Of a stretch of DNA of 39,376 nucleotides, positions 17,346-39,376 are shown piece by piece. This DNA is from Candidatus Levyibacteriota bacterium (GTDB lineage Bacteria; Patescibacteriota; Microgenomatia; Levybacterales; UBA12049), in contig JAUSEW010000005.1 of the NCBI GenBank assembly GCA_030651475.1, positions 1-39,376 on the forward strand, in the 5' to 3' direction. The first letter of the stretch is position 1, and the number at the start of each line of letters is the position of its first letter. The translations under genes were made by a program, and so were the position numbers. The notes beneath the pieces are model-generated. The model did not search any database. It was not told the DNA's origin and saw only the letters and a program-made list of their open reading frames with translations.

Positions 17346-17760
17346 TATCCTGTTTCTTGTAATTGCGCTTTCATTCCTGGGGTTTATAGACGCAAGCTAT
17401 TTAACTATTCTCCATTACGAAAATGCTATTCCTCCTTGCTCTATTGCTCAAGGCTGCGAAACTGTCCTCACGAGTCAATTTGCTAACTTAGCCGGTATTC
17501 CAATCTCTCTTATCGGAAGTGCTTTTTATCTTGCTGCTATAATCCTTTCTTTAATCTTTATTGAGACAAAACGACAATTCATATTAAAATTGATTTTCGC
17601 AGTAATTTTTTTGGGAGCAATCTTTTCGCTAGGGCTTATTCTAGTGCAGATTTTTATTCTGAAAGCAATTTGTCAATATTGTCTTGTATCGGATTTTATC
17701 TCTTTGATACTGTTGGGGATAGTTATTTTTGGAATTAAGCGTCGCCTATTTCGTCCTTGA
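17305..17760 (+). CDS. VKOR-family membrane oxidoreductase
   Basis: FIDASYLTILHYENAIPPCSIAQGCETVLTSQFANLAGIPISLIGSAFY...LKAICQYCLVSDFISL; paired Cys and CxxC typical of VKOR. Confidence 0.88.
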   Translation: MMNLKNSSRTKSNNILFLVIALSFLGFIDASYLTILHYENAIPPCSIAQGCETVLTSQFANLAGIPISLIGSAFYLAAIILSLIFIETKRQFILKLIFAVIFLGAIFSLGLILVQIFILKAICQYCLVSDFISLILLGIVIFGIKRRLFRP

Positions 17761-18205
17761 GATAAACATCTTGGAGATCTTTTTTGTCCCAATTAAAGAC
17801 TTCATCTTTATTAAAAATCAACATTTCTTCTTTTTTGGCAATCTCAACACTTTCCGACGCATGAACAAGGTTATATTGCTGGCTCATGGCGAAATCTCCC
17901 CGGATCGTTCCGGGCTCCGCATCTCTGGCTTTGGTAATACCAATCATTTTTCTGATAGTTGCAACAGAATCCTTGCCTTCCCAAAGCATTGCCACAACCG
18001 GATATGATTTCATATAAGATTTCAAACCTCCGAAGAATGGCTTATCTTTGTGGTGCGCGTACCATTCATCCAAAATCGCATCGGATAAGGAAAGCATTTT
18101 AATGCCGATAAGTTTTAAGCCTTTTCGTTCAAACCTATGGATTATTTCACCGATCAGGCCTCTTTGAACTCCATCCGGTTTTACCAAAACAACACTTCTC
18201 TCCAT
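17735..18205 (-). CDS. ndk: Nucleoside diphosphate kinase
   Basis: MERSVVLVKPDGVQRGLIGEIIHRFERKGLKLIGIKML...NLVHASESVEIAKKE (NxxHASD/E). Confidence 0.95.
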   Translation of the reverse strand: MERSVVLVKPDGVQRGLIGEIIHRFERKGLKLIGIKMLSLSDAILDEWYAHHKDKPFFGGLKSYMKSYPVVAMLWEGKDSVATIRKMIGITKARDAEPGTIRGDFAMSQQYNLVHASESVEIAKKEEMLIFNKDEVFNWDKKDLQDVYLKDEIGDA

Positions 18206-18211
18206 ACTTTA

Positions 18212-18284
18212 TTAGCGTTTAGTTTGGAAGCGTTTAGTTTTATTAGTTTTAACTATACGCTAGACGCTAAATAACTAGACGCTT
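18212..18284. repeat. Intergenic inverted repeat of the TAAACGCT/TATACGCTA family
   Basis: TTAGCGTTTAG(18212-18222)/CTAGACGCTAA(18260-18270) and AAGCGTTTAGT/ACTAGACGCTT form two nested arms; related to the 33-nt repeats at 33725 and 38436. Confidence 0.65.
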
Positions 18285-18305: not shown

Positions 18306-19586
18306 TTAAATCTTTGTCAAAAGGGCAATTGTATTAAGCGAAGTCGAAGGAAAGTTGCCGATTACTGCCAGATTCAAACCTGCCTTTACAAAATACTTCT
18401 TTGCAACGCTATAAACTTCTCCTGCTGTTACTTTATCTATGTTTTCTATAAAATTATCCGGACTCTTAATCTTTTTCTCCAGCAGCTCCTGGGAAGCATA
18501 AAATCCTGCTACAGACCTGCTGTCTTCCAATTCCAGCACCAGATGTCCTTTTATATACTCCTTCGCCTTCGTTAATTCTTCATCCTTAATCCTTAATCCT
18601 TTATCTTTAATCTTTTTGTGTTCTTCAAGAATCACAGCAACTGCTTCTTCTGCTCTTTTTGGGTCAACTCCTGCAAAAGAAACTAAACTCCCAACGTCTT
18701 GATACTGATCAGAATTGGTTCTCACATAATAACCCAATCCCCTTTTCTCTCTTACTTCATGAAAAAGCCTGCTGCTCATCCCTCCGCCCAAAATTGCAGC
18801 CAGAACATCCAAAGCATATCTATCCGGATGCTCCATCGGAACAGTTCGAAAACCCAAGGCAATATGCACTTGTTCTGTCTTTTTCTGTTTAATAAAAACC
18901 TCGGGTTTTTTTTGGTTCTCCACGACCTTTTTATATCGCAACGTATCAAACCTTTGCATTCCCTTAAAGTATTTCCCAATAAGTTTTTCCGCTTCATTTG
19001 AAGTAATTCCTCCTGCTGCAACCACGGTTATATTATCCGCGCTGTATAAACTCGCCATATATTTAACAAAATCTTCTCTTTGAATTTTTTTAATGACATC
19101 TTTTTCTCCTCCAACATCCCAACCCATTGGCGTATCTCCATATAAAAGCCTTTCGTAAATATCGCCGATTTTCCTGCTCGGCGTATCCTCGTAGAGGTTT
19201 AGTTCTTCCGAAATTACTCCTTTTTCTTTCTCTATTTCTTTTGGGTCAAGCTTGGAATTGGAAAGCATATCGGACAAAATATCCAAAGATAGTTCTATTT
19301 TGTCGCTTGCTGATTTGATGTAAAATCCGGTTGCCTCCTTACCTGTAAACGCATTGCATTCTCCGCCCATTCCATCAATTAAACTTGTAATATCTATAGC
19401 TGAAGGCCGTTTTTTGGTTCCCTTGAAAGCCATGTGCTCCAAAAAGTGGGAAATTCCATTGTTGCTTCTTACTTCATAACGGCTTCCTGCACCAACCATC
19501 ACCAAAACCGTAGCGGACTCAAAAGATGGCATTGGAATGGTAATTATCCGAAGTCCGTTTGGCAAAATGCTCCGCTTGAACTGCAT
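18306..19586 (-). CDS. M16-family zinc metallopeptidase
   Basis: NGISHFLEHMAFKGTKKR (HxxEH), GGGMSSRLFHEVREKRGLGYYV. Confidence 0.94.
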   Translation of the reverse strand: MQFKRSILPNGLRIITIPMPSFESATVLVMVGAGSRYEVRSNNGISHFLEHMAFKGTKKRPSAIDITSLIDGMGGECNAFTGKEATGFYIKSASDKIELSLDILSDMLSNSKLDPKEIEKEKGVISEELNLYEDTPSRKIGDIYERLLYGDTPMGWDVGGEKDVIKKIQREDFVKYMASLYSADNITVVAAGGITSNEAEKLIGKYFKGMQRFDTLRYKKVVENQKKPEVFIKQKKTEQVHIALGFRTVPMEHPDRYALDVLAAILGGGMSSRLFHEVREKRGLGYYVRTNSDQYQDVGSLVSFAGVDPKRAEEAVAVILEEHKKIKDKGLRIKDEELTKAKEYIKGHLVLELEDSRSVAGFYASQELLEKKIKSPDNFIENIDKVTAGEVYSVAKKYFVKAGLNLAVIGNFPSTSLNTIALLTKI

Positions 19587-29196: not shown

Positions 29197-31497
29197 TTAG
29201 GAATTTAACACAAAGTTTATAATTCTTCCTTCAACGTAAATAACCTTTTTAATTTTCTTTCCATCCAAATGTTTTTTAACATTAGCACTTAGCGAAGCGA
29301 AGTGCTCAACATCTTTTTGATTTTTTACGTCCGCACTTTTAATTTTTAGAATGTCCCTAACTTTACCGTTAACTTGAATTACAATCGTAACTTCATTTTC
29401 TACTAAAAGCTTAGAGTCATATGCTGGCCAAGACTGCTGATGAATAGAAGATTTTTCTCCTAGATTATTCCACAGCTCTTCGGTGATATGGGGAGCCAAA
29501 GACGCAAGAAGCAAAACTAAAGTTTTGCAGTATTTTATATTTAAAATTTTGTATTTAGTATAAAAATAGTGAAGCTCGTTATAGTATTCCATCAAGTGAG
29601 CGATCGCAGTATTGTAATTTAAATTTTCCATATCCTCCGTCACGCTTTTGATAGTCTTGTGCATAAAAGTATCCAAAGCAGGATCCGCATCTTTTCCCTT
29701 AATACCTGATGCCAATGCCCACACCCGCTTTAAAAATCTGCTCATTCCTTCAATTCCCGAATCCCTAAAGTCTCCGCCCATACTGAATGGCCCGGTAAAC
29801 ATTAGATAGCAACGCAAAGCATCCGCGCCATATTTTTTGATATAGGCATCAGGCACAACCACATTGCCCTTGGATTTGCTCATCTTTGCACCGTCTTTGA
29901 TGATCAGACCATGGGCATAAAACTTAGTAAATGGCTCATCAAAATCTATAAATCCCAAATCGTGAAGCGCCATTGTGATAAATCTTGAATACAGAAGATG
30001 AAGTACCGCATGTTCCGGTCCTCCAATATACATATTAACCGGAAGCCATTTCTTGACCCGAAGCTCGTCGAAAGGTTTATTATCAAACTCTGTATTTACA
30101 TAACGAAGAAAATACCAAGCACTATCTAGGAATGTGTCGGAAACATCTGTTTCTCTTGTAGCAGGACCTTTGCAATTCGGGCAATTTGCTTTGTAAAATT
30201 CCGGATGGTTTGCGAGAGGAGACTTTCCGGTACCTAAAGGCTTCCAGTCTTTCACATCAGGCAGTAAAACAGGCAATTGCTCTTCGGGAACAGGCTGCCA
30301 ACCACATTTTGGACAATTAATCATCGGAATCGGCGGACCCCAATAACGTTGTCTTGAAATCAACCAATCCCGAAGATGGTAATTTACAACTTTTTCGCCA
30401 ACTGGCTTTGCGGAAAGCGAAGTTTTCTCAATCGGAATTTTGTACTTTTCTGCAAATTCCCTATCTCTCTCATCCTCGGCTGGAACTGCCATAATAGCCC
30501 CAGTTCCATAACCCATTAAGACATAATCTGCAATCCAAACCGGAATTTTCTTTTTTGTCAACGGATTTATAATGTATTCTCCCGTAAAAACTCCTGTTTT
30601 CTCCCTTCGTCTTTCTTCATCGGACTTATTAGTTGAAATTTCAATATAATCTACAACGTCTTTTGATTTGAATTCTTTTGCTTTTGGGTGTTGAGGGGAA
30701 AGTACCAGAAATGTAGCGCCGTCCGCAGTTTCAGGCCTTGTTGTAAAAACATCTATTCCACCGAAGTTAATTATCATTCCTTCCGATCGCCCGATCCATT
30801 GTTTTTGGGCAATTTTGATTTTTTCTGCCCAATCAATCTCATTCAAACCATTAAGTAATCTATCAGCATATTTGGTGATTTTGAAAAACCATTGCTCCAA
30901 CTCCTTCTTCTCAACAATCGAAGAGCATCTTTCACATTTTTCGTCAATCACCTGTTCGTCTGCCAAAACGGTTTTGCAGGATGGACAGAAATTAACCGGA
31001 GCCTTCTTACGATAAGCCAAACCGGCTTTAAAAAGCTGAATAAAAAGCCATTGAGTCCACTTGTAATATTTAGGATCATAAGTTTCAACCGTTCTTGACC
31101 AATCATATCCATTACCCGTTGCTCTTAATTGCCTGTAAAAATTCTTCTCCGAAATCTTTGCCTGCTCTTTTGGATGGCGGCCGACCTTAATGGCGTAATT
31201 TTCCGAGTGTATTCCGAATCCGTCAAGCCCGATTGGTTCAAAAACATCATTCCCCTGCATTCTCTTGAACCTGCCGTAAATATCAGCGCCTGTAAAAGCA
31301 TACATATTCCCAACATGCATTCCCTCTGCCGATGGATACGGAAACATCATCAAATTGTAAAATGGCCTATGGCCCTGAGCTTTGTCGAAGGGTTTATCCA
31401 AATTTGGAGAATAAATCTTGGTTTCCTCCCATTTTTTCTGCCATTTTTGTTCGATTTCAGTTGGGATATATTTCAAATTATTTTTACTTTTAGCCAT
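29197..31497 (-). CDS. leuS: Leucyl-tRNA synthetase
   Basis: MMFPYPSAEGMHVGNMYAFTGADIYGRFKRMQGNDVFEPIGLDGFG, KMSKSKGNVVVPD, LAPHITEELW. Start moved from 31515 to MAKSKNN at 31497. Confidence 0.95.
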   Translation of the reverse strand: MAKSKNNLKYIPTEIEQKWQKKWEETKIYSPNLDKPFDKAQGHRPFYNLMMFPYPSAEGMHVGNMYAFTGADIYGRFKRMQGNDVFEPIGLDGFGIHSENYAIKVGRHPKEQAKISEKNFYRQLRATGNGYDWSRTVETYDPKYYKWTQWLFIQLFKAGLAYRKKAPVNFCPSCKTVLADEQVIDEKCERCSSIVEKKELEQWFFKITKYADRLLNGLNEIDWAEKIKIAQKQWIGRSEGMIINFGGIDVFTTRPETADGATFLVLSPQHPKAKEFKSKDVVDYIEISTNKSDEERRREKTGVFTGEYIINPLTKKKIPVWIADYVLMGYGTGAIMAVPAEDERDREFAEKYKIPIEKTSLSAKPVGEKVVNYHLRDWLISRQRYWGPPIPMINCPKCGWQPVPEEQLPVLLPDVKDWKPLGTGKSPLANHPEFYKANCPNCKGPATRETDVSDTFLDSAWYFLRYVNTEFDNKPFDELRVKKWLPVNMYIGGPEHAVLHLLYSRFITMALHDLGFIDFDEPFTKFYAHGLIIKDGAKMSKSKGNVVVPDAYIKKYGADALRCYLMFTGPFSMGGDFRDSGIEGMSRFLKRVWALASGIKGKDADPALDTFMHKTIKSVTEDMENLNYNTAIAHLMEYYNELHYFYTKYKILNIKYCKTLVLLLASLAPHITEELWNNLGEKSSIHQQSWPAYDSKLLVENEVTIVIQVNGKVRDILKIKSADVKNQKDVEHFASLSANVKKHLDGKKIKKVIYVEGRIINFVLNS
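31373..31392. repeat. CCCTTCGACAAAGCTCAGGG repeat inside leuS (- strand reading)
   Basis: ccctgagctttgtcgaaggg on +; translated as FDKAQG. Confidence 0.75.
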
Positions 31498-31552
31498 AAA
31501 GCGAGTATAACACATCCTTGCGTTTTTTTACAAAATTGCCTACTATGGAATA

Positions 31553-32193: not shown

Positions 32194-32931
32194 ATGAAAC
32201 TAACCATATTCCTCATATTTTCTACCTTCTACCTTCTACCTTCTATAACGCCCGCCCTGGCACAAACTATGTCAAACACTAACTATACGCTGCAAATGGG
32301 CAACCTTAATATGACTGCGGGTAAGCCAACCGGACCAAGCAACAAATTAAATTTAACTGTCGGACAAACCGCACCTGGCCTTTACAGCAAATCAGGTGTA
32401 AATTACAAAGTCCGAGCCGGATTTCAGTATATAAAATCTATAATTGCCTTTGCATTTTCTATTTCTGAAACTAATATTAATTTTGGCACTCTTTCCCCAA
32501 CCACTCCGGCAACAAGAACCAATAATCTGACCATTTCAAACGGATCCGCAAACGGATATCAAATAACCGCTTTTGAAAACCATCAGCTTAACGTCCCTTC
32601 AACCGGTTCAATAATTCCCGACACAACTTGTGACGACGGAACCTGCACGGAAAGCACGTCTGCTCTTTGGAATAATACTTTAACCTATGGATTTGGTTAT
32701 AGATGCGACAACGTCAGCGGAACCGATTGCGCCAGCGGATTTACAACCTCAAATTATTACAAACAATTTGCAGATAATTCTGTTTCAGAAACTCCTCAAG
32801 CAGTGGTAAGCGGAACAAATGTAGGCAGAAGTAAGCAAGTGCAGGTAACTTATAAAGTCAATATTTCTTCGTCCCAGCCTCCGGGAACTTATACAAACGT
32901 CATTACGTATATCGCAACACCAACCTTTTAA
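32194..32931 (+). CDS. Secreted surface protein ending in ITYIATPTF
   Basis: Signal peptide MKLTIFLIFSTFYLLPSITPALA; beta-rich domain; C-terminus GTYTNVITYIATPTF. Confidence 0.75.
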   Translation: MKLTIFLIFSTFYLLPSITPALAQTMSNTNYTLQMGNLNMTAGKPTGPSNKLNLTVGQTAPGLYSKSGVNYKVRAGFQYIKSIIAFAFSISETNINFGTLSPTTPATRTNNLTISNGSANGYQITAFENHQLNVPSTGSIIPDTTCDDGTCTESTSALWNNTLTYGFGYRCDNVSGTDCASGFTTSNYYKQFADNSVSETPQAVVSGTNVGRSKQVQVTYKVNISSSQPPGTYTNVITYIATPTF

Positions 32932-32932
32932 T

Positions 32933-33955
32933 ATGAAAATTTTTTACTTTTTATTTATGATTTTAAATTTTGCATTTTTAATTTTTAATTTTGATAAAGC
33001 TGCCGCAGCAGGCTTATCAATAGGCATTTATCCTCCGTTAATACAAATCGAAACCTTACCGCCTGCAAATGTAAATTCCAAGATAACCATCCAAAACTTA
33101 GGCGACAATCCTGTTGATTTAGAAATAACTCTTAAGCCATTTATTGCCTCTAAAGATCAAAACGGACAAGTTGAATATATTCCCCAAGATCAATCATTTG
33201 GCGAAGACCCTCTGATTCTCCAAAGAGTACAAATTATTGACGAAGGAAAAACAATTAAAAACATCACTCTTGCTCCGCTTCAGAAAAAAGATTTAACTCT
33301 CAATATAAATATTCCTTCCGAGGAATCTCTAGGCGACTATTACTTTTCCGTTATATTTTCCGCCATTCCCGAAGCTCAAAATACAGAGGCTAATCCTTCT
33401 TTGCTTGTCAATCAGTCCCAAAGTGTAGGAGGAGTTGCGACAAATGTGCTTCTTTCCGTTTCATCCGAAACCAAAGAAACCCCTCAAGGCGTTATCGAAA
33501 CATTCTCGTCTCCAATATTTTTAGAAAAGGGTCCTGTTCCTTTTACCGTAAGCATTAAAAATACCGGACGCTATTTTATAACTCCTCAAGGTTCAATTCT
33601 TATCAAGAATATCTTCGGACAAACGGTAGGAAAAGTAAATCTTCTTCCTGTAAATATTTTGTCTAACTCAACACGCTTGCTCCCCGATGAACTGCAGTCT
33701 CCTGAATCAAATCCATCCACGGCAGAACTAAACGCTAAACGCTATACGCTAAACGCTACTAAAGCTTTCTGGCCGGAAACTTTTCTTCTTGGTCCATATC
33801 AAGCCACACTTAATGTGTCTTTATCTGATCAAGGACCGATATTTAAAAGAAGCATCTACTTTTTTGCGCTTCCATTGCAAAGCCTAATTGGTTTAGCAAT
33901 AGCTGCTATCGTCTTTGTTTTGATACGCAGCAAAATAAGAAAAAGAAATGCTTGA
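32933..33955 (+). CDS. DUF916-like membrane-anchored beta-sandwich protein
   Basis: Signal peptide; IGIYPPLIQIETLPPANVNSKITIQNLGDNPVDLEI; LGDYYFSVIFSA; C-terminal TM plus RSKIRKRNA. Confidence 0.7.
   Translation: MKIFYFLFMILNFAFLIFNFDKAAAAGLSIGIYPPLIQIETLPPANVNSKITIQNLGDNPVDLEITLKPFIASKDQNGQVEYIPQDQSFGEDPLILQRVQIIDEGKTIKNITLAPLQKKDLTLNINIPSEESLGDYYFSVIFSAIPEAQNTEANPSLLVNQSQSVGGVATNVLLSVSSETKETPQGVIETFSSPIFLEKGPVPFTVSIKNTGRYFITPQGSILIKNIFGQTVGKVNLLPVNILSNSTRLLPDELQSPESNPSTAELNAKRYTLNATKAFWPETFLLGPYQATLNVSLSDQGPIFKRSIYFFALPLQSLIGLAIAAIVFVLIRSKIRKRNA
33725..33757 (+). repeat. Exact 33-nt repeat, copy A
   Basis: GAACTAAACGCTAAACGCTATACGCTAAACGCT, identical to 38436-38468; translated ELNAKRYTLNA. 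Confidence 0.95.
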
Positions 33956-33980
33956 CAATGAATTATTATTGTTACATACT
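33952..33980 (+). promoter_or_regulatory. Putative promoter inside end of upstream gene
   Basis: TTGACA (33952-33957), 17-nt spacer, CATACT (33975-33980); start codon of next gene at 33999. Confidence 0.5.
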
Positions 33981-33998
33981 GGTAAAAATGGCTATTTC

Positions 33999-35450
33999 AT
34001 GAAAAGGTCGGTTTTGTCATTGGTATTAGTTTATATTTTTATTCTGTTCTTTTTGTCTGCAAAAAGTTCCTATGCTGCGACTCTTGCCAGTGTATCAGAC
34101 ACTATCACAACATCTCGTCCTTCAGCTTCCGCGCCTTTAACTGCAAACCAAGCTGCAAGCGCATCCCAAGTAACTGTAGTTGATAACGGATCAATATATC
34201 TTGCTTCGGACTCGGCGACTTTTCGGCCTGATACAGGAGAAACTATTGATACGTCCAAAAATGTATCCTCTATGTCCGCCCAAATCTCCGGGACTCCAAA
34301 TACCCGTATTGTTTATTTTACAAATACGATAACCAATACACATCATGCAGGCGACCCTGTGGTTGTACCTACAACTGCAATGCACACTATTTCCTTTAGG
34401 ACAGTCGCAGCTATTCCAACGTCCGGCAAAATTACAATTACCTTTCCTGCTCTAACAACCGGTGACGCAAATAATGCCGCTTCCCCTTCTGCCACAACTT
34501 TCCAGCTTAATGCGCTCTCGGACACCAATGTCAAAATTAACGGATTGTCAGGAGCTGCGACATTTACAGGCACCTATACTGCTCCTACCAACGGCACATC
34601 GCCAACTATCGCGTTAGCTTTAACTTCAACAACCACTATTGCAGCCAGCACTACGGTAACCATTCTTCTTGGCTGCTCGGCAAATTCAGGCGCATCCTGT
34701 ACGACTCAAGTTCCAACCATTATTAACCCAACTAAAACAGCAGCTGCAGGCACAGCAGATTCTTGGGCGCTGACAATTACTACTACTGATGTAACAAATA
34801 GCATTGACCTTGATAGCGCAAAAATTAGGATTGGAACCGTTGAGTCAGTCCATGTCCAGGCAACAGTTGATCCGACTCTTACGTTTACAATTGCCGGAAT
34901 TGCCAATAGCACAGCTATAAACAACGGCAATACTACGGGATGTACGAATACGGAAACAACCAATACAGGCATCGCTTCAACTGCGACAACTGTTAATTTA
35001 GGCAATCTTTCCAGCGGGGCAATCAATATCTCTGCCCAGCTGATAACAATTTCCACCAACGCGCAAAACGGTTATAGTCTTACTGCGACTTCTTCCGGCC
35101 ATTTGATTAACCCTGCGACCGGCTTTTGGATAGCTGACTCGACAACTCCAACCGTTATGACTGCAGGGACACCTTGGTTTGGCATACACGCATGCGGACT
35201 TAATGTGGCTTCTGGCACTTGGGCAACAGGCGCAACCGGAGGAGGAGCAAACGCTAAATACGGCTGGCCAACACAAGCTACATCCGTAAGTCTTGCTTCC
35301 GTAGCAACAGGACCAATTGGCAATACTGCTTCAACAGGCGGAGTCGGGGCCGGATTGACAAGCGTTGAGTATGCTTCAACTGTTGATGTAAGCGTACCAG
35401 CAGGAATTTATTCGTCAGTCATTACGTATGTAGCAACACCAACCTTTTAA
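33999..35450 (+). CDS. Large secreted Thr/Ser/Ala-rich surface protein ending in ITYVATPTF
   Basis: Signal peptide MKRSVLSLVLVYIFILFFLSAKSSYA; Thr-rich beta repeats; C-terminus GIYSSVITYVATPTF. Start revised from 33948. Confidence 0.75.
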   Translation: MKRSVLSLVLVYIFILFFLSAKSSYAATLASVSDTITTSRPSASAPLTANQAASASQVTVVDNGSIYLASDSATFRPDTGETIDTSKNVSSMSAQISGTPNTRIVYFTNTITNTHHAGDPVVVPTTAMHTISFRTVAAIPTSGKITITFPALTTGDANNAASPSATTFQLNALSDTNVKINGLSGAATFTGTYTAPTNGTSPTIALALTSTTTIAASTTVTILLGCSANSGASCTTQVPTIINPTKTAAAGTADSWALTITTTDVTNSIDLDSAKIRIGTVESVHVQATVDPTLTFTIAGIANSTAINNGNTTGCTNTETTNTGIASTATTVNLGNLSSGAINISAQLITISTNAQNGYSLTATSSGHLINPATGFWIADSTTPTVMTAGTPWFGIHACGLNVASGTWATGATGGGANAKYGWPTQATSVSLASVATGPIGNTASTGGVGAGLTSVEYASTVDVSVPAGIYSSVITYVATPTF

Positions 35451-35655
35451 GAAAGTTGGGGAATTTCTAATTATTAAACAAATATACAAATTACAAATAA
35501 CGAAATCAAAATAAGCGAAGACACAAAATTTTCGCAGATTGCGAAGAATCAGGAAAAATATTAAAGTAATAAGAGATGCTAATAACCGAATTGCCGCTAA
35601 ATAAAAACTATGAACCGGCAATAAGAAAATTTTCGTGTCGGCGCTTAATAAGCAT

Positions 35656-36621
35656 ATGAAAAATTTTAAAATTAAAATTGGATTATTGGTAGTATTTGTT
35701 TATTTGTTTATTGGGTTATTGTCGCCTAAGGCGACTGCGCAAGAAGATATTAGGACAATGACGATTGTTCCTCCGACGGTTGAACAGAGTCTGGATCCGG
35801 GAGGAAAAGCCGAAGGCACAATGAAAGTTATCAACGACAGTAACTCTCCTCTATCTTTCACTGTTTCCGTTAACGATTTTATCGTCGAAGATGCCAAAGG
35901 AACTCCAAATTTACTTGCTCCGAATACTCTTTCCAAGAAATTCAGCGCGTCTTCCTGGATTGGAGTTACGCCAAGCTCGTTCATAGTCCCTCCTCATGAC
36001 AAACAAGTTTTAAATTACTATATCCAAGTTCCCTCTTACGCCAGGCCAGGAGGACATTATGCATCGGTTGTCTTTACTCCAACAAACAATATCGGAATAC
36101 AAGGAACCGGAGCATCTGTTGAAACAAAAGTGGGTACTCTTTTCTATATTTCCGTAAGCGGCACTATCAACGAATATGCCATGATAACCAAATTTCTCAC
36201 AAACTCATTCCAAGAATACGGTCCTGTAAGTATAGCAACGACAATTAAAAACTTTGGAGATCTGCATATTAAACCTGCAGGACAAATAACTATTTATGAT
36301 ATGTTTGGCAGAAAAATTGAAAGCTCAACTTTCCCTAAATTCAATATTTTCCCTCTGGCTTCGCGAGACTATCAAAACAGCATTGGAGCCAAAATAATGA
36401 TCGGACGCTTCAGAGCCAATATCCTAACAAGCTACGGCCAAAATAACAATCTTCCGCTGATTGCAAATGTCTATTTCTGGGTTTTCCCATGGAAGATAGC
36501 CTTAATAATTATCCTTGCAATAATCGCTATAATTTTGGGGACAAAGTATTGGAAGAAGAAATCAAGTAAAGAAGAGGACTCTGTCAAAGACGAGGATCAA
36601 CCTCAGATAATCCACCATTGA
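35656..36621 (+). CDS. DUF916-like membrane-anchored protein
   Basis: MTIVPPTVEQSLDPGGKAEGTMKVINDSNSPLSFTVSVNDF...PPHDKQVLNYYIQVPSYARPGGHYASVVFTP; C-terminal TM and KKKSSKEEDS tail. Confidence 0.75.
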   Translation: MKNFKIKIGLLVVFVYLFIGLLSPKATAQEDIRTMTIVPPTVEQSLDPGGKAEGTMKVINDSNSPLSFTVSVNDFIVEDAKGTPNLLAPNTLSKKFSASSWIGVTPSSFIVPPHDKQVLNYYIQVPSYARPGGHYASVVFTPTNNIGIQGTGASVETKVGTLFYISVSGTINEYAMITKFLTNSFQEYGPVSIATTIKNFGDLHIKPAGQITIYDMFGRKIESSTFPKFNIFPLASRDYQNSIGAKIMIGRFRANILTSYGQNNNLPLIANVYFWVFPWKIALIIILAIIAIILGTKYWKKKSSKEEDSVKDEDQPQIIHH

Positions 36622-36632
36622 AATTCTAAAGA

Positions 36633-37511
36633 CTAGTATCCTACCCACCACCAATCGTGGAGCAATTTTGGGGTTTGATTAAAAGAATCAGTTGCAGTCC
36701 TCCGCACAATTCTATAAAGAAAAGTAAATTTCTCCGGCCATAGTCTTATAATAAGTATAATAATCAGGATAAGGATTGGAATTGCAATCCAAAGCGGTCC
36801 AAACGATATGAAAGTGAAAAACCTTATAATTTTGGACAATATGTCTTGCAAAAATGCCAAGATTTGCTGCCATAAAGAAAGAGATTTTAATTCAACTTTT
36901 TTCGTAGGCGTCAGAGATTCTTTGTCTTGATATGTTGCTTTGGCGTAAATCTCATATGTCCCTGCCGCAAGAGATGGAACTTTGAATGAATAATATCCTT
37001 TGCTGTCTGCTCTGGTAGTTAAAATCTGGCCGTTACTTAATTTAAGAGTTACCGTGGCTCCTGGCATGGTGTAACCGAAAGCCGTGACTGTTTGCCCTTG
37101 CGCAACCTCGTTTCTGCTTAATGCCAGCGTCGGAGGAAGAAAAAGATTATTCATCGTAATGCTTCCTGTTGCAGGAGGAAAAGAAAAACAGGTCGTGGAA
37201 TCCCCAACTCTGGCGAAATCAACCGCCTCAAGACAAAATCCAGAAAATCCTTTATTTATGAGAACTTGGGAAATAAAGAAATTACCATTCGCATCTGCTA
37301 CAGCGGATCGTATAAACGTACCATCCGACGAAGTTAAGATGATAGATGCGTAAGGAGAGACAAATCCGGAAACATTAAGATAGAACTCACCTACGGATGC
37401 TGATACCCCGGTTTCCAAACGGCCTGTTGGATTTTGTATGATTTGAGCGTGAGCCTTGCCTGTAACGGCTAAAGAGTAAATCAAAAATAACAGTAAAAGT
37501 AATTTCCTCAT
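36633..37511 (-). CDS. Signal-peptide, two Ig-like (carboxypeptidase-regulatory/bacterial Ig type) domains, C-terminal TM
   Basis: IILTSSDGTFIRSAVADANGNFFISQVLI and VTLKLSNGQILTTRADSKGYYSFKVPSLAAGTYEIYAKAT; TM FGPLWIAIPILILIIILIIRL. Confidence 0.75.
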   Translation of the reverse strand: MRKLLLLLFLIYSLAVTGKAHAQIIQNPTGRLETGVSASVGEFYLNVSGFVSPYASIILTSSDGTFIRSAVADANGNFFISQVLINKGFSGFCLEAVDFARVGDSTTCFSFPPATGSITMNNLFLPPTLALSRNEVAQGQTVTAFGYTMPGATVTLKLSNGQILTTRADSKGYYSFKVPSLAAGTYEIYAKATYQDKESLTPTKKVELKSLSLWQQILAFLQDILSKIIRFFTFISFGPLWIAIPILILIIILIIRLWPEKFTFLYRIVRRTATDSFNQTPKLLHDWWWVGY

Positions 37512-37835
37512 TACTATCATTCTATGCATAAAGAGATAAAGAAAACAACGCCTTGAAATCTTATTTTTAGTTTATGTCTTCTTTGCAGTCTAAACAAAAA
37601 TTCTATTCCTCGTAGCGCTTAAGAGTCTTGAGTGATAACTTAAAAATGAAGTCAAAAAATTTGTCTTATCGAATTTTTATCTTGTTTAAAGTTTTTTATA
37701 AACGAAACGTGAAATTTAAAATTTTTTAATTTTCGATAGACTTTTTTAAAACTGGAGGAAGAAAAATAAGAAACTCAAAAAGCAATTTTGTGACAAACAC
37801 ATCAAAACGCATCATTGGTTATTATAGGTTCTTTA

Positions 37836-37990
37836 ATACATTATGATATGTTTATATATAGATTATGTTTTCTGAAAATACAAACATTTATCGAATAAGC
37901 TGTAAAATTATCGTGAAAACCCACATTTTCGTACTTTTTCACACAATTTTTCCTTAGCTCGCAACAGTGTATTAAAATATCATAATGTAT
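37836..37990. repeat. 14-bp perfect inverted repeat pair in AT-rich intergenic region
   Basis: ATACATTATGATAT (37836-37849) and ATATCATAATGTAT (37977-37990), 127 nt apart. Confidence 0.7.
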
Positions 37991-38049
37991 CATTTCATCC
38001 TTACTCTAGGCTCTTGACAATATGTGATAGAATTCTCTACTCTAATTGT

Positions 38050-38163
38050 ATGGCAACAAAATTAATCTTCATTAATACTCCAGATAATCTGTATAATCCG
38101 TATAATCTCGTAGCTCGCGCTCACTTTTCACAAAAAGCAGTTAGGGAAATAAAATGCAGTTAG
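38050..38163 (+). CDS. Possible 37-aa upstream ORF overlapping the start of the SAM-domain gene
   Basis: MATKLIFINTPDNLYNPYNLVARAHFSQKAVREIKCS*, stop at 38161-38163 overlaps ATG at 38154 in another frame. Weak evidence. Confidence 0.25.
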   Translation: MATKLIFINTPDNLYNPYNLVARAHFSQKAVREIKCS

Positions 38164-39376
38164 TAGAACAATTCATATCGTTTTTAAAGAACCAAAAAAA
38201 CCAGCCTTCGAAAGCTACGGTAAAAAATTATAAAGCAGATGTAAGTCAATTTATCAGATGGTTTGAAGAAAGATTCAAAAACTTATTTGATCCGAATAAA
38301 GCAACTTTTCAAGTCGTAGGTCTCTATAAAGAATCCCAAAGTTTCTCTGCCAGCTCTATCGAAAGACACTTGTCTTCTCTTCGTAAGTTCTTCAATTTCT
38401 TAAAGCTCGAAGGCATCATCTCCCAATCTCCCCTCGAACTAAACGCTAAACGCTATACGCTAAACGCTGACCAGTATCGCATCAAGGACTTCAAAGATTT
38501 TCTTTATGTGTATAACGCTTCACATCTTACTATCAAAAACTATATCATTGATGTTAAGCAATTTTTCAAATGGGCAGAGGAAGTTACCGATAGTAAAAAC
38601 GAATGGGACCTACGGAAAAAAAATGTCTTAACCAAGATTGACAGCAGCTTTATTGAGGAATATAAAAACCGTCTTTTGGAGCAAGAATTTCTTCCTTCTA
38701 CTGTAAACCGCAAGCTCTCATCTTTGAGAAAATATTTTGCTTGGGCACAAGCCGAAAACTTACTAAGAAACGGAATTATTGAAGTTAGAAGTGAGACGTC
38801 TTTGACCACGGAAAAAGGAAGTCTTGATAATTTGATTTCCGACAATCAAAACGTCAAAGATTCAAAGTCAAGAATATCCAACTTCCCACATCAAAAATTC
38901 CAATCTCAATACTCCCCCCTACCTCCTATCCGCCTCGCGCAGAAAGTCTTTAATGTTTTTGAGCTTGTTTTTGATTATCTTGTAATTTTCCCACTGGCGA
39001 AATTAGGAGAAACATTTGACTATGTATTTTGGCAAATTCAAGGCAAACCAGTCTTCAAGGCTACAAGGTCACACCTTGTAGGCTCGTCTACCTTCGACCC
39101 TCTATCTTCTATCATCCGCAGAGTTTCTAACATTTCCAAAGAGATGTACGCTCCTCTTTCCATCTCAACCAAAAGTTTCCCGTGGCACAGAAAAGCCTGG
39201 CACCATCTGCGTCATACTAGACCGAACTGGTACAGAACATATCATTCTTACCCGATTACCCACTATTTTCACCTCGCAATTCTGATTATTTTCATGACCG
39301 CTGTGGGATTTGCGATGTACAATGCTTTCGCAAAAGGCCCGCAGCAAAGTCCCACGTTCGCAGCTGCGCCTGTCGC
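38154..39376 (+). CDS. Membrane-anchored protein with two tandem phage-integrase SAM-like (core-binding) domains, partial at window edge
   Basis: Open frame with no stop to window end (absent from ORF track). MQLVEQFISFLKNQKNQPSKATVKNYKADVSQFIRWFEE...SIERHLSSLRKFFNFLKLEGI and TIKNYIIDVKQFFKWAEE...STVNRKLSSLRKYFAWAQAENLL; TM YFHLAILIIFMTAVGFAMYNAF. Confidence 0.85.
   Translation, partial: MQLVEQFISFLKNQKNQPSKATVKNYKADVSQFIRWFEERFKNLFDPNKATFQVVGLYKESQSFSASSIERHLSSLRKFFNFLKLEGIISQSPLELNAKRYTLNADQYRIKDFKDFLYVYNASHLTIKNYIIDVKQFFKWAEEVTDSKNEWDLRKKNVLTKIDSSFIEEYKNRLLEQEFLPSTVNRKLSSLRKYFAWAQAENLLRNGIIEVRSETSLTTEKGSLDNLISDNQNVKDSKSRISNFPHQKFQSQYSPLPPIRLAQKVFNVFELVFDYLVIFPLAKLGETFDYVFWQIQGKPVFKATRSHLVGSSTFDPLSSIIRRVSNISKEMYAPLSISTKSFPWHRKAWHHLRHTRPNWYRTYHSYPITHYFHLAILIIFMTAVGFAMYNAFAKGPQQSPTFAAAPV
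38436..38468 (+). repeat. Exact 33-nt repeat, copy B
   Basis: GAACTAAACGCTAAACGCTATACGCTAAACGCT; same frame as copy A, ELNAKRYTLNA. Confidence 0.95.
39061..39081. repeat. CTACAAGGT-CAC-ACCTTGTAG hairpin inside the SAM-domain gene
   Basis: Perfect 9-bp arms; translated KATRSHLVGS. Confidence 0.8.

Follow-up and report, generated by a model that had tools for sequence, protein, structure and literature searches.

Results

A 33-nt sequence shared by two unrelated genes of the window (the whole stretch of DNA analysed, 39,376 nt from a Candidatus Levyibacteriota bacterium) belongs to a family of tandem heptanucleotide arrays, with unit CTAWACG, which is dispersed over the genome, lies both between genes and in frame inside core genes, and recurs in distant phyla. 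On balance, these arrays are probably the outcome of short-range copying and 7-nt slippage of a dispersed tandem heptamer, followed by selection for stop-free sequence at tolerated sites.

The two copies in the window

The 33-mer (GAACTAAACGCTAAACGCTATACGCTAAACGCT) is identical at 33/33 positions in its two copies, with 0 matches expected by chance and none in 100 shuffles, and the sequence differs on both sides of the two copies, as the preliminary description had reported. Tandem Repeats Finder resolved it into 4.3 copies of the heptamer CTAAACG, in the irregular unit order A-A-T-A, the third unit having T for A. The family as a whole can be written AACTA(WACGCTA)nWACGCT, with the 5′ boundary AACTA conserved in this taxonomic order. 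The copies and their host genes are:

32933..33955, plus strand: host gene 1, WxL-interacting protein type (PF06030), 340 aa
33725..33757, plus strand: copy 1, encoding ELNAKRYTLNA; exact match, in the WxL-interacting-type protein; orthologues without the peptide
38154..39376, plus strand: host gene 2, two phage-integrase SAM-like domains; extends past the contig end
38436..38468, plus strand: copy 2, encoding ELNAKRYTLNA; exact match, at the junction of the two SAM-like domains; orthologues without the peptide

Both copies are read as E-L-N-A-K-R-Y-T-L-N-A within long ORFs. Residues 95-105 of the SAM-type protein form the peptide, which does lie at the proposed domain junction, between Phage_int_SAM_1 (4-87) and Phage_int_SAM_4 (111-198); in the WxL-interacting protein (PF06030, formerly DUF916) the supposed loop corresponds to a linker C-terminal of the Pfam domain, variable among 29 orthologues. 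The two coding copies are 33 nt long and one-armed, having no palindromic partner.

In six-frame translation only the LNAKRYTLNA frame of the repeat is stop-free, and the T-containing third unit keeps it open. The shared frame of the two copies is forced, since the other five frames hold stop codons, and any genic survivor of the sequence must take this one strand and frame. Agreement in frame therefore cannot count as separate evidence for a function.

Copies elsewhere in the genome

We searched, and sampled in stretches, the genome to which the window belongs (G000, 911 kb in 36 contigs). The 32-base core was found at 4 loci and an exact 30-mer likewise 4 times; TsaD and a DUF2298/LysM membrane protein hold the two exact copies outside the window. 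A relaxed search gave about 16 loci with degenerate forms, versus 1 match in the reversed control. Further in-frame copies were present in LepA, in a FAD amine-oxidase-type protein, at a second place in the DUF2298 gene and, with both inverted arms, in a GT4 glycosyltransferase. Some intergenic copies of the family form hairpins about 70 nt long, and the window has one of them:

18214..18283, no strand assigned: intergenic hairpin of the same family as the 33-mer, AGCGTTTAGTT-N4-AGCGTTTAGTT ... AACTATACGCTAGACGCT-N4-AACTAGACGCT

It lies directly upstream of a nucleoside-diphosphate kinase ORF (17735-18205, minus strand), and a promoter and terminator scan at this 18.2-kb hairpin gave none above shuffles. 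We also observed that the second heptamer copy of the DUF2298/LysM gene (L001, G000:C4:12298 region) is broken by a CCCTTCGG...GCTCAGGGCGAG palindrome-like repeat, two repeat kinds being nested in this ORF.

Orthologues and structural context

For each window gene, about 29 relatives were compared, and all lacked ELNAKRYTLNA; the nearest orthologues are about 50% identical, and those of host gene 2 are mostly longer ORFs, of about 400 to 3900 aa. In both genes the array site is a hypervariable linker whose length is roughly unchanged among orthologues, and several orthologues carry other heptamer-type peptides there, e.g. KFEIRNSKFEI and ILNTKYEILNTK. The preliminary description had taken the repeat for a small mobile or templated element inserted in coding sequence. 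The dispersed, copied and tolerated character of the repeat was borne out by the many copies and by the orthologues lacking the peptide; its insertion was not, at least in the two window genes, in which the array apparently overwrites the linker and does not lengthen it. The pattern that would have refuted the earlier reading, only two copies in the genome and the peptide in every orthologue, was not seen.

The array region of TsaD exceeded that of solved structures by about 18 residues, part of them contributed by an AAATCCT array next to it. By the same comparison the excess was about 17 in a DXS, 5 in a PurM and about 2 in a DapF, and in LepA the region was shorter by 1, with the caveat that the native loops of distant homologues may differ from the ancestral loop in length. 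Given this range, from -1 to about +18, the array often replaces native residues rather than merely interrupting them.

Arrays occupy orthologous sites in several genera. A second site of TsaD has them in three genomes (G057, G020 and G024), where the TsaD of the window's own genome has a different heptamer array (LKIENLKLKI); a UvrD-like helicase (G047, G020) and DnaX (G111, G273) give further cases. A MurC-type array site is common to G006, of the same family as the window's genome, and a Ca. Levyibacteriota record (L022, L077). Similar arrays in other genera also occupy different genes. As a separate observation, a spermidine-synthase-like ORF (L334, in G178) reads LDAKRYTLNA at a position where such enzymes presumably have a DARRYL-like motif, and the repeat may there have landed in native sequence that was already similar.

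Distribution beyond the genome

Copies were found far beyond the two in the window. A search of relatives, covering 147 genomes, found the strict 19-mer form in 11, counting the window's own, and the 32-mer was present in 15 of 374 genomes of the class when up to 3 mismatches were allowed, while a GTDB scan gave at least 116 stretches with family arrays. Omnitrophota, Atribacterota, Patescibacteria, Bacteroidota, Planctomycetota and others are represented among the GTDB matches listed. Core genes hit in other Patescibacteria were TsaD, DnaX, UvrD-like and RecG. A viral contig of 23.9 kb (IMGVR_UViG_3300031651_000021; L316, L317) contains at least 5 arrays of the family, some directly upstream of ribosome-binding sites and start codons. 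We found no description of the CTAWACG family in Patescibacteria or Omnitrophota in the literature.

Paired arrays

Inverted pairs within 70 nt have a strong polarity: among the matches listed, AGCG was on the left and CGCT on the right in 44 pairs, and the reverse order was seen in 1. A bias in that direction was also seen in other heptamer families (16 versus 6). Unrelated sequence often separates the arms, and two arms of one element matched each other no better than arms taken from different elements did (17.19 versus 17.23 of 21 positions, p = 0.71), which led us to reject a hairpin kept by pairing or by arm-to-arm copying. Both arms of the DnaX pair have changed from CG to GG/CC-type units; this two-arm change is only an anecdote, because same-element arms are not more alike in general. 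A role as terminator was likewise rejected, as there was no clear excess between convergent genes (0.18 versus 0.13, among the matches listed). In three records (L103, L117 and L128, from Omnitrophota bin C20_maxbin.118 and similar), a small palindrome of AAGTCG..CGACTT type makes up the loop that separates the inverted arrays, so that the arrays flank an inner hairpin.

Dominance of period 7

In the 281 kb sampled from the window's genome we counted 51 period-7 arrays, versus 1 to 13 arrays for each of the other periods from 5 to 12, 1 period-7 array in a codon-shuffled control and 0 in 100 kb of E. coli. Many of the sampled stretches had been picked for the CTAWACG family, yet this family makes up only about 8 of the 51 arrays, and many different heptamer units coexist in the one genome. 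By naive ORF calling, 46/51 arrays were within ORFs of at least 90 aa, with an ORF fraction of 0.91. All ten array-bearing ORFs that we tested matched Pfam families (10/10), and in both proteins compared with structures the arrays were in loops (2/2). The relatives had the same period bias, with arrays in ORFs, called in the same naive way, in 15/35 cases for random stretches and 46/69 for orthologue loci, the two orthologue sets overlapping at some places; period 9 was also raised in the orthologue loci. An AACTGAT-type array is present in relatives. Arrays with other units in the window and in the rest of its genome include:

18572..18612, minus strand: TTAATCC array, in frame in an M16-like protease ORF (KDKGLRIKDEE)
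32216..32247, plus strand: TTCTACC array, in frame near the N-terminus of ORF 32194-32931
32941..32995, plus strand: TTTTTAA-type array, in frame near the N-terminus of host gene 1
G000:C18:70815-70841: AAATCCT/AAATCCG array in TsaD, in frame (NPKSEILNPK)
G000:C11:13722-13748: AAATCCT/AAATCCG array in a penicillin-binding protein, in frame

If the sampled density holds genome-wide, this genome of about 0.9 Mb would have about 150 intragenic heptamer arrays, with rewritten loops in TsaD, LepA, the penicillin-binding protein, glycosyltransferases and others, and such arrays would be a continuing source of protein sequence change in Patescibacteria. No description of such a heptamer density within genes was found in the literature.

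Discussion

Origin of the arrays

By the origin that we favour, copies would reach new intergenic and genic places by copying at the DNA level, possibly by template switching or by short-patch illegitimate recombination where replication or repair leaves gaps, and the length of the arrays would be shaped by slippage in steps of 7 nt. Such copying would swap out a short native stretch, with an arbitrary change in length, and selection would retain only the in-frame, stop-free copies in a tolerated loop or linker. The peptide LNAKRYTLNA would have no selected function, and it would be common to unrelated proteins because selection leaves one strand and one frame. The conserved AACTA boundary and the 44:1 polarity are not predicted by plain template switching. 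By constraining the mechanism, this polarity of the paired arrays also bears on why prokaryotes favour repeat units of length 7.

It is possible, albeit unlikely, that the paired arrays are instead functional elements, i.e. regulatory hairpins of 5′ regions or mRNAs, of which the coding copies are accidental by-products. Among the GTDB matches listed, only 28 of the 142 placed arrays are in ORFs, although ORFs make up about 85% of the sequence; the window hairpin precedes the kinase ORF, some viral copies precede ribosome-binding sites, and the polarity of the pairs is fixed. A maintained hairpin is, however, not what the equal likeness of same-element and different-element arms suggests, convergent genes show no clear excess among the matches listed, and the four hairpins of the window's own genome have folding z-scores of only -1.8 to -4.9.

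We consider it quite unlikely that the arrays come from a telomere-like end extension, in which a templated TTTAGCG-like heptamer would extend broken 3′ ends on the G-rich strand before joining, leaving head-to-head (TTTAGCG)n...(CGCTAAA)n pairs, single arrays being one-sided events. This model would predict the AGCG-left/CGCT-right polarity seen among the matches listed, towards which the other heptamer families also lean, and filler at a repaired break could account for the replacement of native sequence. If it were true, the arrays would be break scars with a fixed polarity across phyla, giving in-frame peptides in core proteins after selection. Nevertheless, unrelated sequence often lies between the arms, many different heptamers occur within one genome, and 13 of 16 array-bearing genomes have no RVT_1 reverse transcriptase, which leaves end extension without a candidate templating enzyme; for the same reason, we rejected a dependence on reverse transcriptase. 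Two RVT_1 genes do occur in the window's genome (G000:C27:652-1272 and G000:C6:49135-49755, in open frames of 385 and 372 aa), and they possibly belong to diversity-generating retroelements. DGR-type adenine mutagenesis was considered for the variable sites and discarded: the middle site is almost only A/T and the other two are about 90% A, in a count biased by the seed pattern.

A purely local origin, by which each array would come from in-place slippage of a native heptamer and the sharing would be coincidental, is very unlikely overall. Many other arrays of the genome have different units, and slippage with a period of 7 is a proposed process in prokaryotes (Mrazek 2007, as relayed in PMC4679880); some AT-rich arrays may have such an origin. 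For the CTAWACG family it is strongly disfavoured, in view of one 32-mer with the irregular unit order A-A-T-A at four loci and of one common heptamer at about 16 loci.

Mobilisation of a REP-like element by a RAYT (Y1_Tnp) transposase is highly improbable. Two Y1_Tnp genes in the genome and the hairpin form of the intergenic copies speak for it, but a family array was in the flanks of only 1 of 30 Y1_Tnp loci examined, and the array-bearing genomes G057 and G151 had no Y1_Tnp match. We rejected this route because the Y1_Tnp loci do not have the repeat at their flanks. REP sequences with RAYT transposases are likewise short dispersed hairpins, mostly intergenic; the present family differs from them in its tandem heptamer structure and in showing no association with Y1_Tnp genes. 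Scarcely credible, finally, is an ancestral or convergent protein motif under peptide-level selection. It would account for the same peptide and frame in both genes, but what the copies have in common is their DNA, which is also found between genes; five of its six frames are closed by stops, and the peptide is missing from orthologues.

Comparison with known repeats

Heptanucleotides are the most abundant class of long repeats in prokaryotes (Mrazek 2007, as relayed in PMC4679880 and PMC4692102), and the same work, as cited there, proposed slippage tied to a 7-nt polymerase contact (Mrazek et al. 2007, via PMC4679880, PMC4692102). The arrays described here are alike in having a 7-nt tandem unit, a length beyond chance and the commonest period. 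Units in multiples of three are reported as those likely to occur in coding regions (PMC4679880), whereas the scarcity in coding sequence to be expected of a 7-nt unit was not observed in the sampled genome, 46/51 arrays being in ORFs; for the CTAWACG family alone, the GTDB matches listed are mostly intergenic. Moreover, one family is here dispersed as near-identical copies. What is new is the CTAWACG family, its penetration into core coding sequence and its polarity; the heptanucleotide repeat class is known.

TAACTGA heptamers of Beggiatoaceae, Cyanobacteria and Bacteroidetes are mostly intergenic and often directly upstream of start codons; some copies lie within ORFs, where a single orientation is permitted, and these are found mainly at the ends of proteins or in hypothetical ones (PMC4679880). 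Both they and the present family are heptamer families common to distant phyla, but here the unit is CTAWACG and copies are inside core enzymes. Cyanobacterial STRR sequences are reportedly the subject of an older literature (Mazel 1990, Vioque 1997). Unlike the present family, the GGGAATC-type heptamers of Xanthomonas and Nostoc are G-quadruplex-type units, under-represented in coding regions (PMC4692102); they too form degenerate heptamer arrays, some in inverted pairs.

Rickettsia palindromic elements, of about 150 bp, lie in frame in unrelated genes (PMC10969869). The preliminary description had compared the 33-mer with them, and only the in-frame behaviour is alike, namely related peptides in unrelated genes of a small genome. 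Instead of a discrete palindrome of about 150 bp, we found one family of tandem heptanucleotide arrays of about 20-75 nt, which in genes mostly have a single arm and in many cases take the place of native sequence; the coding copies in the window are 33 nt long, and hairpins elsewhere measure about 70 nt.

The leucyl-tRNA synthetase ORF of the window (29197-31515, minus strand) reads KPFDKAQGHRPFYN near its N-terminus, and its FDKAQG-type peptides are presumably those of another short coding-inserted repeat.
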